Source: a virus. Taken from it: a DNA stretch of 22,008 bases. Positions 6,037 through 15,090 of this stretch are shown here, in pieces. Every line of letters starts with the position of its first letter. Positions within the stretch are counted from its first letter, which is position 1. The position numbers were made by a program, and so were the translations under genes. The notes below the pieces were generated by a model. That model saw only the letters and a list, made by a program, of their open reading frames with translations. It made no database searches and was not told the DNA's origin. The stretch is taken from IMG/VR virus record IMGVR_UViG_3300042483_001107, positions 1 through 22,008 of that record; one strand, written 5' to 3'.

Positions 6037-7575
6037 ATGAACGGTCTCATACAAGAACTAACAACTGAGCTCAAATCTAATTCGAGCATAAATTCTAGCA
6101 TCGCCGCGAAGGTTGTGCTTGAATCAATCAACAATTCACTTATGTTGGGTGTTGCGCCTAACCAAATCTTAGAAAATTCTCTAGAAACTTTGGAGCAATT
6201 TGCTACAGAAATGGTAAACGAAAACCTTAAGGAAGTCGTTGCTAAATTTAAGAAACTGGCTGAAAAGCCTACAGCAAGTCTGCAGAACATGGCTAAGGAA
6301 GCTGGTCTAAAGATCAAACTTCAAGCTATCAAAGAATCTGAAACTTATGGAGATCCAGTTTTCAAGCATACTGTTGCTAGATTGGAAGAGGCTGTTAATT
6401 CTATGCCAGAATACAGAGCTTTAGGTTTTGTGTACGAAGGTCTTTCTAAATTCGCTTATGATAAAACGGTTGCTGGAATTTTAGAAGAAATTTCAACATA
6501 CGTTAACAACAATCGCGTAAAGTTAGAAGTATTAAACTCTGTTTTTGAAATGAGATTGGCTGGTCCAGTTCTTTACAAAGATGCATGCGCTCTTCTTGAG
6601 CAAGCAGTATTAGAAGGAATTGAAACTTCGGACGGTATTAAAATGAAATTGCGTTCTTTTTCTAATTTGCCAGTGGTTAGTAGACTTATTAACACAGTAA
6701 GCATGTTAGAGGCAAAAACTGATGGAACCTTTAATTTAGGAATCGGTAACGGAGACGCTCAAGTAAAGCCAATCGTAGCTCCTTTTTATAAAGTTACAGA
6801 GAGCGATGCATTAATTTTCATCGATAATAAATTCATCAAAGTTTCAGAAAATGATGATCCTACTCAAGTAACCGCAGAAGATGCTCAAGAATTTCCTGAT
6901 TTCTTTGAAATCTGTGAAGCTTTTAGATTCTTGAACTTCAAAGAATCTGGTTCAGATACAGTTGCCAAAGGTAGAAACCTATCAGTAGCATTCGGAATCA
7001 ACGAGAACGGTACCTTAAACCTTAAGTTAAATGGTGCAGTTGTTGAAAATCTAGATTCAGTTAGACTAACTGAACTTTTCGTAATGGAATCGCTTGAAAC
7101 ACGTAGTGCTCTTACTAAGATCTTTGATAACTTAGATCTTATTGTCAATATTGAATTTGGTAAAACTATCGTTAACGAAAGACTTGGAAGAAATTCAATT
7201 GTTTTAAATCTTGGAGAAAACATTTTCGTTTTTGAAAAATTAGGAGACACTCGTATTCTTAAGAAGATGAAGGACCTAACTTTCCACAATTACGTAATGG
7301 AAAACTTCAAGTACGACGTTAGTGAACTTTATTCGATTCAATTAGAAGAAAGAGACATTAAAATCAAGGAACTTAATTCAGAGAAATCGGTAATTGAAGC
7401 TAACTTAGAGAAATTAGAAAAAACTATTTCTCAAATTAACGAAGCTTTAGCAGATTCATCAATCTCTGCTGATAATAAAGAAAAATTAAACGAACTTAGA
7501 ATGTCAATTGAAAAGAACGTTAATTCTCTAAAGAATCAATACATCTTAGTCGATCAGTCCAAAAAAAAAGCTTAA
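6037..7575 (+). CDS. probable abundant virion protein with C-terminal coiled coil; ends on an A9 slip site
   Basis: 512 residues. The N-terminal 130 residues are helical. The middle (about 220-420) mixes strands and helices. Residues about 433-505 form a clear coiled coil (ERDIKIKELNSEKSVIEANL and on), ending QSKKKA. No cysteine pattern or membrane segment stands out, and I recognise no family. Three tandem late-promoter-like motifs precede it, which points to high late expression and so to a virion or prohead protein; that is inference. The last three lysine codons are a run of nine A residues (7561-7569). A -1 shift there bypasses the TAA at 7573-7575 and reads into the downstream SH3/KOW-like frame, giving a 609-residue product. 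Confidence 0.8.
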   Translation: MNGLIQELTTELKSNSSINSSIAAKVVLESINNSLMLGVAPNQILENSLETLEQFATEMVNENLKEVVAKFKKLAEKPTASLQNMAKEAGLKIKLQAIKESETYGDPVFKHTVARLEEAVNSMPEYRALGFVYEGLSKFAYDKTVAGILEEISTYVNNNRVKLEVLNSVFEMRLAGPVLYKDACALLEQAVLEGIETSDGIKMKLRSFSNLPVVSRLINTVSMLEAKTDGTFNLGIGNGDAQVKPIVAPFYKVTESDALIFIDNKFIKVSENDDPTQVTAEDAQEFPDFFEICEAFRFLNFKESGSDTVAKGRNLSVAFGINENGTLNLKLNGAVVENLDSVRLTELFVMESLETRSALTKIFDNLDLIVNIEFGKTIVNERLGRNSIVLNLGENIFVFEKLGDTRILKKMKDLTFHNYVMENFKYDVSELYSIQLEERDIKIKELNSEKSVIEANLEKLEKTISQINEALADSSISADNKEKLNELRMSIEKNVNSLKNQYILVDQSKKKA

Positions 7576-7604
7576 GTGAGTCTGAGGACATTACTCTAGT
7601 GTCC
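7561..7604 (+). other. candidate -1 recoding site: A9 run followed by a hairpin
   Basis: Nine A residues (7561-7569) sit in frame as AAA AAA AAA, two codons before the stop of the 512-residue gene. They contain the -1 slippery heptamer A AAA AAA. An inverted repeat, GGACATT (7586-7592) and AGTGTCC (7598-7604), forms a seven-pair stem with one G-U and a five-base loop. The stem starts 16 bases after the run, which is longer than the usual spacer for ribosomal -1 sites. Transcriptional slippage, as known for the A9 run of Thermus thermophilus dnaX, is an alternative, and so is a sequencing indel. Confidence 0.5.
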
Positions 7605-7865
7605 CCAACCTCTGCGAAGTACGCAACTGGCCAACGTGTCATGTTGAAGTCAGGTCAATCTGCAACAATCGTTGGAATTGACCCAGTTGGTAAAACTTAC
7701 AAGGTAATGGGATCTGATAATAAGTACCAATCCGTTAAGCCTGAAGAGATTGAAAAGATTGACTCGTCTAAATATAAAGACTATCAGCAATCTGGTCCAA
7801 ATCCTGAAAATCCAGACGAACTTTCAATTAAAGAAAAAGACGTTACTCTAGACCAAAGCTCATAA
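7599..7865 (+). CDS. SH3/KOW-like domain, either a small protein from GTG or the -1 frame extension of the upstream virion protein
   Basis: 88 residues from the GTG at 7599. Residues 8-55 read like a small beta-barrel of the KOW/SH3 type (YATGQRVMLKSGQSATIVGI, then KTYKVMGSDNKY and SVKPEEIEKI). The rest is a hydrophilic tail. The GTG is a poor start with no ribosome-binding sequence, and it lies inside the hairpin. The frame is open upstream through 7569 into the A9 run, reading SLSESEDITLVSP before the domain. That makes it more likely the C-terminal extension of the 512-residue protein produced by a -1 shift. As an added surface domain it would resemble decoration or Ig-like domains attached to phage structural proteins by frameshifting. 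Translation is likely; which of the two routes is used is open. Confidence 0.6.
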   Translation: MSPTSAKYATGQRVMLKSGQSATIVGIDPVGKTYKVMGSDNKYQSVKPEEIEKIDSSKYKDYQQSGPNPENPDELSIKEKDVTLDQSS

Positions 7866-7899: not shown

Positions 7900-8715
7900 A
7901 TGGCTGACGTACTATGCTCAATCGAAGAGGCTCGAATTAATGGAACTCTTCAAGTCTTCGAAAAGAAGACCAAATACCACGACTATCAATTTCTAGTTAG
8001 ATCTGAGGAAGAGATAAAATTCAATGTGTCTCAAAATATCTCTACTAAACCGACAGGCGGAGAATATTTTAAACCACTATTCATACCACATTATGCTCAA
8101 AACCCAGGAGGTCCATTGACTCTTGAGGATTTAGACGAAGAAGATGTTTGGTTGGATGCAGGCGGTCATATTGGAATATTTGCAACTCGTTTGCTAACCC
8201 AATTTCCAAGAATTCAAAAAGTTTATTCTTACGAACCTTTTCATAATAACGTTGAGTTTGCTCAGCAAAATATTGAAATGAATCACGTACAAGACCGTTG
8301 CGAGATAATCGAGAAAGCGATAGTAGCCGACGATTCTAAGTCCGTTGAATTCTTCTTATCTCAGGATTCAGGTAAGCACAGCGTTCATCCAATCCGAGGA
8401 CGCCAGGTCACAACTGTTCCTGCTGAGAATATTAATACAATCATTAAGGAAAAGGGAATTACCTGTATTAAGATGGACATTGAGGGTCTTGAATACGATA
8501 TGATTAAAGCAATCAATAAGGAAAGCTTTGATCAGTTGAAGCTATTCATCGTTGAATACCATTTCCATTATAGTTGGTTACTTGAAAACCGTGCAGCTAA
8601 GTTCAATGAGATTATGGAAATTTTTGGAAATAATTTTGACAGAATTTTCGTTAATCCAAGAACCGCAAACGGTAAGCACTTCATTACTCACTTTGCTGGA
8701 TTTAAAAAGGCATAA
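7900..8715 (+). CDS. FkbM family SAM-dependent methyltransferase
   Basis: 271 residues. The SAM-binding motif I is LDAGGHIGIF at residues 85-94, followed by the post-strand-2 acidic motif YEPF at 111-114. The signature of the FkbM family, KMDIEGLEYD, is at 191-200. FkbM enzymes usually O-methylate sugars or glycan-like groups, so a likely job is capping a glycan on the virion, on host surface polymer, or possibly on a modified base. The N-terminal 80 residues are family-variable. Its stop overlaps the ATG of the DNA glycosylase by one base, and a glycosyltransferase-like gene follows that, so the three form one operon from the promoter at 7868. The family is confident; the acceptor is unknown. 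Confidence 0.88.
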   Translation: MADVLCSIEEARINGTLQVFEKKTKYHDYQFLVRSEEEIKFNVSQNISTKPTGGEYFKPLFIPHYAQNPGGPLTLEDLDEEDVWLDAGGHIGIFATRLLTQFPRIQKVYSYEPFHNNVEFAQQNIEMNHVQDRCEIIEKAIVADDSKSVEFFLSQDSGKHSVHPIRGRQVTTVPAENINTIIKEKGITCIKMDIEGLEYDMIKAINKESFDQLKLFIVEYHFHYSWLLENRAAKFNEIMEIFGNNFDRIFVNPRTANGKHFITHFAGFKKA

Positions 8716-12605: not shown

Positions 12606-13700
12606 ATGACATTCGTTAAAACATTTGAAGATTTTAAAAATCAGGTCTCACAAGTTTCAGAAAAAGCCATTTCAGGTGGCTCTGTAACTAAGGAAGCTGA
12701 AAACAAAGCTGCTGGCGAACTTGCTAAATTCACAGTAGTTCTTAAAGCGACTAGCGATAATGATACGATAAGTGATGCAAATCCAGCACAGAGCGCCCTA
12801 GACCATCTTGTAAACAGTCAAGACTTCCAGAACTGGTATTCCGGTGAAACTACCAGCAATGATGCGGCTGCCCAAACTTTTACAAGTTCAAATTCAACTT
12901 CCATTGCATTCATTGACACTGGCAAGCACAGACAAGCTGGTTTCTTGAAAAGAGAAAAAGCAACTGAAACCTTTATTTTCAAGAGAATCGGTTCGCCTAA
13001 CACAACTGATCGAAATAAGTCTGAACTTAATTATGACGTTAAGAAATTTCCAGCACAGGCAAAATCGAAAGTTGCTTCAGGCGGCACCGTTTATGCATGG
13101 AACCTTGAGCAGGAAAAGACAATGACTCTTAATCCAGCTCAACCAATGACAGTTCCATTGGACAGCTTAACCGTTGACCTTGCAATGAAAACTAATATTA
13201 CTGCTACACCGGCTAGCCAATCAAGCCCACAAACTCCACCGGCTACACAAATTCCGGCTGGATCTGGAGGAGCGCCCACTACTACTCAAGCCTCTACTAA
13301 TACTAATCAGGCCTCTTCTTATGTTGGACTTAAGCGTACTCAAACCTTTGATAAAAGAATTCAGGATCTACAAAAGACAATTATTGCTAAGGGTGGTCCT
13401 GCTGCTGATGCGATCGTTGCAAAAGGCGGAGCTATTGGAAAATACGGATCAGGTACAGCTTCGGCAATTGGTATTATAATTGGAACAAATAAGGCTGAAG
13501 ATGAAATCACAGCAGACATTGATGCTAAATTAAAAACTGCTCTTGCTGGAGTAACCCCTGATCAAATTGCAAAGGTTCAAGCGCCTGCTGCAAAAACTGG
13601 AGTAACTTCACCGGCTGCTGCTAAGCCTGCAGCTACTTCTGCTAAACCGGCCGCTGCTGCTAAGCCTAAGGCTGTCGCTAAAGCTGACCCAGGATTCTAA
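12606..13700 (+). CDS. virion-like protein with Pro/Thr linker and Ala/Pro/Lys tail, function unknown
   Basis: 364 residues. The N terminus MTFVKTFEDFKNQVSQ resembles the short amphipathic targeting peptide of T4 internal head proteins (M-K-T-Y/F-x-x-F). Residues about 70-195 look folded (HLVNSQDFQNWYSGE, then GKHRQAGFLKREKATETFIF). Residues about 200-240 are a Pro/Ser/Thr/Gln linker. Residues 243-320 form another folded part with small helices (FDKRIQDLQKTIIAKGG). The last 40 residues are an Ala/Lys/Pro-rich tail (AAKPAATSAKPAAAAKPK). Histone-like basic tails of this sort bind DNA in some head proteins, but none is shown here. It follows an exact late-promoter consensus and lies between two proteins with V-N-E/A sites. 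The function is unknown. Confidence 0.75.
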   Translation: MTFVKTFEDFKNQVSQVSEKAISGGSVTKEAENKAAGELAKFTVVLKATSDNDTISDANPAQSALDHLVNSQDFQNWYSGETTSNDAAAQTFTSSNSTSIAFIDTGKHRQAGFLKREKATETFIFKRIGSPNTTDRNKSELNYDVKKFPAQAKSKVASGGTVYAWNLEQEKTMTLNPAQPMTVPLDSLTVDLAMKTNITATPASQSSPQTPPATQIPAGSGGAPTTTQASTNTNQASSYVGLKRTQTFDKRIQDLQKTIIAKGGPAADAIVAKGGAIGKYGSGTASAIGIIIGTNKAEDEITADIDAKLKTALAGVTPDQIAKVQAPAAKTGVTSPAAAKPAATSAKPAAAAKPKAVAKADPGF

Positions 13701-14441: not shown

Positions 14442-14630
14442 ATGTTAATCGTAAATACAAAGGACAATGGATCATTAGACAGAGCCCTAAAGGTACTAAA
14501 AAGAAAATTTGAACAGACTGGAACAGTTATAGAACTTCGCTCACGTAAGGAGTTCACAAAACCTAGCGTCAAACGCAGAGAAGAGATGATTGATGCAAAG
14601 TATCGCCAAACCTTTATCAAGAATGATTAA
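14442..14630 (+). CDS. rpsU: ribosomal protein bS21 homolog, phage-encoded
   Basis: 62 residues. It starts MLIVNTKDNGSLDRALKVLK and continues with RKFEQTGTVIELRSRKEF and KPSVKRREEM. This is the classic bS21 pattern of two basic helices with the R/K-S/R-R-x-E/Q-F-x-K-P-S core, and it matches the short Bacteroidetes form best. bS21 sits on the small subunit near the 3' end of 16S rRNA. In Flavobacterium johnsoniae it helps hide the anti-Shine-Dalgarno sequence, and as I recall Tyr54 makes a contact there; this protein also has Tyr54. Phage-encoded bS21 is known from large phages. It is packed 6 bases after a virion-like gene and overlaps the Nudix gene by 8 bases. A likely role is swapping into host ribosomes to favour phage mRNAs. 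Confidence 0.9.
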   Translation: MLIVNTKDNGSLDRALKVLKRKFEQTGTVIELRSRKEFTKPSVKRREEMIDAKYRQTFIKND

Positions 14631-15090
14631 AACATTTTCAGATTTTTTGAACGAGAAAAAAAAGAATTGGAGTGGAGCTGGCGTTGCTATTGTTTACGAT
14701 GCCAAAATTCTATTGGTCCATCCAGCAAATGGCAGTTGGGTCAAACCGGTTATGGGAATTCCCAAGGGTGGAGTTGAGGAGGGCGAAGACCTTCTTGATG
14801 CAGCGCTTAGAGAACTTCGTGAGGAGACCGGCATTAAACTTTCACCCGATAAATTAGAGCAACAAGTCGAGTCAATCGACATTTTTAATAAAGACGGCAA
14901 GTACCAACATTCTCTACACTATTTCGTTTGTAGAATATCTGATCTTTCCGAAATTGGGCTAGACTCGCTAGCCGTTCCAAAATCCCAACTTCAAAAAGAA
15001 GAGGTTGATTGGGCAGGTTTTGTTAATATCAAGGAAGCTTATGGAAAAGTTTCAAGAGCTCAATTAATAATATTAGACCGCCTTTCCTAA
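14623..15090 (+). CDS. Nudix hydrolase with a capsid-targeting-like N terminus
   Basis: 155 residues from the ATG at 14623, chosen because it overlaps the bS21 stop in the compact ATGATTAA form and gives a sensible N terminus. An upstream in-frame ATG at 14590 lies inside bS21 and is less likely. The Nudix box G-x5-E-x7-R-E-x-x-E-E-x-G-I is complete at residues 49-71 (GGVEEGE at 49-55, RELREETGI at 63-71). MGIPKGGVEEGE resembles diadenosine polyphosphate or NTP pyrophosphohydrolases, so nucleotide or alarmone hydrolysis, or RNA decapping, is likely. The N terminus MIKTFSDFLNE/KKKNW looks like the targeting peptide of T4 internal proteins (MKTYQEFIAE/A). If so, the enzyme may be packaged in the head. 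The substrate is unknown. Confidence 0.93.
   Translation: MIKTFSDFLNEKKKNWSGAGVAIVYDAKILLVHPANGSWVKPVMGIPKGGVEEGEDLLDAALRELREETGIKLSPDKLEQQVESIDIFNKDGKYQHSLHYFVCRISDLSEIGLDSLAVPKSQLQKEEVDWAGFVNIKEAYGKVSRAQLIILDRLS

Follow-up and report, generated by a model that had tools for sequence, protein, structure and literature searches.

The DNA analyzed here is a viral window of 22,008 nucleotides, in which an open reading frame of 512 codons ends with ...TCC AAA AAA AAA GCT TAA. The -1 frame stays open beyond this point, which raises the question of whether the gene gives rise to one protein or two, and by what means the second would be made. The initial annotation proposed that the A9 run is a slip site through which a fraction of the product acquires a further domain. 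The run and the -1 frame, open through 7865, were confirmed in the sequence and are kept in 40 related contigs. We estimate with a probability of approximately 0.87 that the gene makes two proteins by a programmed -1 frame change at a run of 8-9 A residues. The features of the locus are summarized in Table 1. The shifted product is predicted to comprise 511+98 = 609 residues. The next gene begins at 7900, 34 nt past the stop of the extension, a spacing that fits a gene whose true end is that of the extension.

Table 1. Features of the slip-site locus and their positions in the window.
Feature	Position	Strand	Remarks
Short product, 512-aa ORF (512 codons)	6037-7575	+	Likewise 512 codons in all relatives
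Slip run A9, codons of Lys509-511	7561-7569	+	Synonymous identity of 1.0
-1 heptamer A_AAA_AAA	7563-7569	+	Inside the A9 run, in the 0-frame register
0-frame stop TAA	7573-7575	+	One codon past the run; TAA/TGA in all relatives
Hairpin 7586-7593/7597-7604, 8 pairs with one G-U	7586-7604	+	16 nt after the run
-1 extension, 98 codons plus stop (SLSESEDITLVSPTSAKYATGQRV...)	7569-7865	+	Stop at 7863-7865; predicted to be reached only via the shift
SH3-like (Tudor/KOW) five-stranded barrel, predicted	7626-7763	+	Extension residues about 20-65; AlphaFold2, Foldseek

By itself, an A9 run is unremarkable at the base composition of the window: dinucleotide shuffles gave 4.09 expected runs over the two strands, against a single run observed. 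Three relatives of 252-271 kb each carry only 2-5 separate runs of A9 or longer, always including the run of the slip site. The finding rests on the conservation of the run together with the frame organization in the 40 contigs. These contigs were obtained by protein searches and share 49-95% identity with the 512-aa protein of the window (31 from the first search, six from the second, L100 via the extension, plus L116 and L117, the latter a 254-kb contig in a Bacteroidetes metagenome-assembled genome [MAG]). They include near-identical copies of one phage, and approximately 22 are distinct.

The run was A9 in 36 of the 40 contigs and A8G, in the same register, in four (L026, L027, L029, and L116). 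In all relatives, three Lys codons are followed by one further residue and then by TAA or TGA. A heptamer of the X_XXY_YYZ type, A_AAA_AAA or A_AAA_AAG, lies in the 0-frame register in 40/40, and each contig has a -1 frame that, starting at the slip site, stays open for 78-102 codons (contig L012 ends inside the frame). Two Lys codons after any NNA suffice for A_AAA_AAR. The extension is shortest in the most divergent clade (L116 and L026; 78-87 aa), where the barrel core is kept but the DYQxSG tail motif seen in the other relatives is missing, along with part of the loop regions. Based on these comparisons, we consider the slip pattern in the 512-aa gene to be genuine and selected.

The codons of the run and of the stop were also conserved. 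Among 20 A9 sequences, 13 of the 16 invariant Lys columns mixed AAA and AAG, and only positions 509-511 were AAA throughout (20/20). Synonymous identity at these three codons contrasts with a mean of 0.51 and with values of approximately 0.5 on both flanks; directly outside the run, including downstream, synonymous conservation was at background. Constraint on the protein itself might account for part of the conservation of Lys509-511. The 0-frame stop was kept in 23/23 sequences. The second and third -1 codons (Leu/Ile, then Ser/Thr/Asn/Arg) always form this stop, as xTA or xTG followed by A; in the Ile clades the codon is ATA, which makes up 11% of Ile codons, and every Ser is encoded by AGT (10%). 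When codon usage was resampled, the probability of all nine clades keeping the stop was approximately 1e-5 if the clades are taken as independent, which they are not fully. The Ser508 codon (7558-7560) was TCC in 15/23 sequences, a codon used for 4% of the Ser residues of the gene. TCA, which accounts for 34% and would make A10, was found at this position in 0/23.

The extension is under purifying selection as a reading frame. Its dN/dS was 0.03-0.15 where dS was calculable, close to the value of the gene, and differences at codon positions 1/2/3 were 0.321/0.215/0.501 in the extension and 0.297/0.159/0.493 in the gene. The other two frames across the same region contained 3-9 and 6-21 stops. 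Amino acid conservation starts at the slip site, and no start codon for the extension is conserved across the relatives. In L019, L020, L024, L025, L069, and L026, no start precedes the domain or lies early in it; the only ATG, GTG, or TTG in L020 is an ATG inside the barrel (+138), and the first in L026 is a TTG at +207. Furthermore, the -1 frame upstream of the slip site is open for just 6 nt in L069 and L026. Since there is neither a conserved start nor sufficient upstream room, separate translation of the extension is unavailable. The conserved run, the kept stop, and the selected -1 frame that has no start strongly imply products of 512 and approximately 609 aa, which supports the proposal in the initial annotation that a fraction of the product is the longer form.

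Three explanations that do not involve recoding may be weighed against these data. Homopolymers attract indels, and a sequencing or assembly error might have split one continuous frame of 609 aa. Nevertheless, A10 or a continuous frame was found in none of the 40 contigs, which derive from many samples, include the contig of the Bacteroidetes MAG, and were compared in both frames, a check for which the initial annotation had called; the stop is also maintained through codon choice. We regard this explanation as having practically no chance of being correct. The homopolymer also sits exactly at the frame junction, and changes in its length during replication might toggle the extension within a population. 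Against such phase variation, A9 and A8G, which keep the same frame, are the only run lengths in the 40 contigs, and it is highly improbable. The extension might instead be a small gene of its own, translated past the 512-aa stop either after reinitiation or from a start codon of its own. GTG 7599, to which the initial annotation pointed as a poor start, is indeed the sole usual start ahead of the domain in the -1 frame of the window and occurs in some relatives; however, it is absent from most divergent relatives, and conservation extends from the slip site onward rather than from any start. A separate gene is thus very unlikely, if slightly less so than phase variation. The agreement of 40 relatives led us to reject all three.

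The level at which the frame changes is a closer question. RNA polymerase may slip on the 8-9 A residues, such that A10 (or A7) transcripts are read into the extension and the same two proteins result. The full run of 8-9 A is kept even though a ribosomal heptamer needs only seven, and no RNA stimulator is conserved, both of which favor slippage during transcription. Moreover, 9-A runs slip in bacterial transcription, and Thermus dnaX uses long A runs in this manner (PMC5009743, PMC3711429). In contrast, the shift has a single direction (-1) in all lineages, which is a criterion for ribosomal shifting (PMC3711429). The A8G clade shortens the run yet retains A_AAA_AAG in register, and the run never exceeds nine A, with the Ser codon that would lengthen it being absent. 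We consider transcriptional slippage to be possible, albeit the less probable of the two, and favor ribosomal -1 slippage on A_AAA_AAR, a level that we infer from these patterns. Frameshifting was measured experimentally at 40% for a cassette of nine A (PMC3711429), and A_AAA_AAG is the heptamer of the E. coli dnaX type, which is much more prone to shift in E. coli (PMC5009743).

The initial annotation also described a hairpin downstream of the run. The hairpin was found at the distance given; it can form in the window and its close relatives but is lost in others. RNAalifold over the relatives returned no consensus structure, and two covarying pairs at the named structures were no better than shuffles. 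A role for the hairpin or a pseudoknot as a stimulator was rejected because consensus folding, covariation, and downstream synonymous conservation were all lacking. Since the hairpin is not conserved, the A run itself appears to be sufficient for slippage, as judged from sequence comparison. Some frameshifts in tailed phages operate without stimulators (PMC5009743).

The domain added by the shift was predicted by AlphaFold2 from 18 sequences. A confident block (pLDDT 87-88) covered extension residues 21-60, and the rest was low (pTM 0.49); the strands of the barrel were predicted at extension residues 23-26, 31-38, 43-48, 53-56, and 61-64. In Foldseek searches of the PDB, the best match was the Tudor domain of the lamin-B receptor (LBR; E 8.4e-4), and matches to the PHF1/PHF19 Tudor domains, PWWP, and NusG were also obtained; the probability was 1.00 for Tudor, PWWP, and NusG. 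The extension is thus predicted to be an SH3-like barrel nearest to Tudor/PWWP/NusG-KOW, and the initial suggestion that a -1 shift appends an SH3/KOW-like domain is supported, the KOW/SH3 reading being right at the level of the fold. No Pfam Tudor or KOW family was reached above the cut-off (the hits were weak, with Tudor_5 at the top, at E 0.0047 in a single member, and KOWx at E 0.083), and, therefore, the ligand of the barrel cannot be inferred.

The 512-aa carrier is predicted to have a helical N-terminal part, a mixed alpha/beta middle, and a long C-terminal coiled coil. Comparisons with the PDB gave no fold match (model pTM 0.40) and no usable sequence match, PHROGs contained no family for it, and Pfam gave a sub-threshold coiled-coil match only. 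We concluded that this protein is a new family. Its closest database homologue ends at 512 aa. Predicted-fold matches in BFVD were to the Tenacibaculum phage PTm1 and to pT24, and a profile HMM linked the core of the 512-aa protein to a protein of the Lak megaphages (E 9.5e-15) and to pT24 (E 1.5e-3); these homologues are distant. ORF-242 of PTm1 and BPT24_169 of pT24 are mutually homologous, and each follows a DNA polymerase gene. The former (442 aa) stops after the coiled coil with no extension, and a terminator-like hairpin lies directly after it; the latter (936 aa) and the Lak protein (1682 aa, code 15) extend in the same frame by hundreds of further residues. Therefore, the core occurs in a short form, a long form, and, in the clade of the window, apparently both by frameshifting. 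The C terminus of the Lak protein was considered as a homologue of the extension; the resemblance was suggestive by eye, but its score fell within the range of shuffled sequences. Searches starting from PTm1, L116, and a Lak-containing profile revealed no further intermediate lineages. BPT24_169 (L113:6058-8868) is annotated as 'DNA ligase 1'; it has long acidic stretches besides its homology to the coiled-coil protein, and this label is very likely a misannotation.

The claim that the carrier is an abundant virion protein was not borne out, since it had no family, PDB, or functional match and its gene is only located within some kilobases of those for terminase and the baseplate. In a 271-kb relative, the gene is 8-15 kb downstream of genes for the baseplate wedge, terminase, PhoH, and a sigma factor, and approximately 107 kb from that for the Gp23-type capsid protein. 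A virion role is plausible. A search for a T4-type gp19 gave no match, but its control was equally silent, so that this negative carries no weight. Elsewhere in the window, a NUDIX-like ORF (14590-15090) has an A8 run (14656-14663) close to its beginning, where KKK is encoded, and ORFs at 12606, 14626, and 21447 (minus strand) open with similar F-rich peptides (MTFVKTFEDF, MIKTFSDFLNE, and MKNYIALFESF), which we take to be reminiscent of T4 capsid-targeting leaders. Related contigs of 252-271 kb carry a Gp23-type major capsid protein (MCP), terminase, and baseplate genes, and one contig was binned with Bacteroidetes. Moraphages are jumbo phages (200-307 kb) of freshwater with T4-type virion genes and a Bacteroidota host (PMC12619734). 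Size, habitat, genes, and predicted host suggest that the window may belong to this lineage, the description of which does not mention frameshifting (PMC12619734).

The ratio of the short and long products and the role of the extension are matters that we infer. Most or many decoding events would end one codon past the run and yield the 512-aa protein. A fraction would shift to -1, most likely by two tRNA-Lys re-pairing on A_AAA_AAR, and would thereby add a tail of approximately 98 aa bearing the Tudor/KOW-like SH3 barrel at the end of the long coiled coil. By analogy with other pairs of phage proteins, a mixed assembly would then result in which only some of the subunits bear the extra domain, and this domain may have a function in binding or assembly. 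We tentatively speculate, at somewhat less than even odds, that the frameshift sets the ratio of the two forms of the core protein, with the recoding site replacing a gene fusion and a Tudor-like binding domain being placed on part of the subunits in mixed assemblies. In contrast, other Bacteroidota jumbo phages have the short form only (PTm1) or the long form in frame only (pT24 and Lak).

The addition of a C-terminal domain by frameshifting is already known in tailed phages; this slip site, the carrier family, and a Tudor/KOW-like frameshift domain were not described earlier in the literature searched. The present results reveal a recoding site with deep conservation that lies apart from the customary tail chaperone, capsid, and transposase genes, in uncultured jumbo phages of freshwater, with an extension that gene callers missed. 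They pose a question of stoichiometry, namely, what a Tudor/KOW-like barrel does on a subset of subunits, and provide a natural test case for ribosomal versus transcriptional slippage in Bacteroidota.

Frameshift-added domains in phage capsid and tail proteins are mostly Ig-like (PMC5009743), whereas the domain added here is a predicted Tudor/KOW-like SH3 barrel, the slip site is a run of 8-9 A, and the carrier belongs to a new family not known as a capsid or tail subunit. In the lambda tail assembly chaperones gpG/gpGT, a -1 frameshift likewise fuses on a further segment and seems to need no stimulator; however, gpG is a small chaperone, while the 512-aa carrier has no family match and no established adjacency to a tape measure gene. 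T4 does not have G/GT shifting (PMC5009743). Bacterial dnaX, Mg chelatase, and other A_AAA_AAR or A9 genes share the slip sequences and direction (PMC5009743, PMC3711429). The shift in E. coli dnaX leads to a shorter product, whereas that proposed here leads to a longer one. Among proteins with a homologous core, PTm1 ORF-242 is unextended and the tails of pT24 BPT24_169 and the 1682-aa Lak protein are encoded in frame, in contrast to the tail in the clade of the window, which would be added by a shift.
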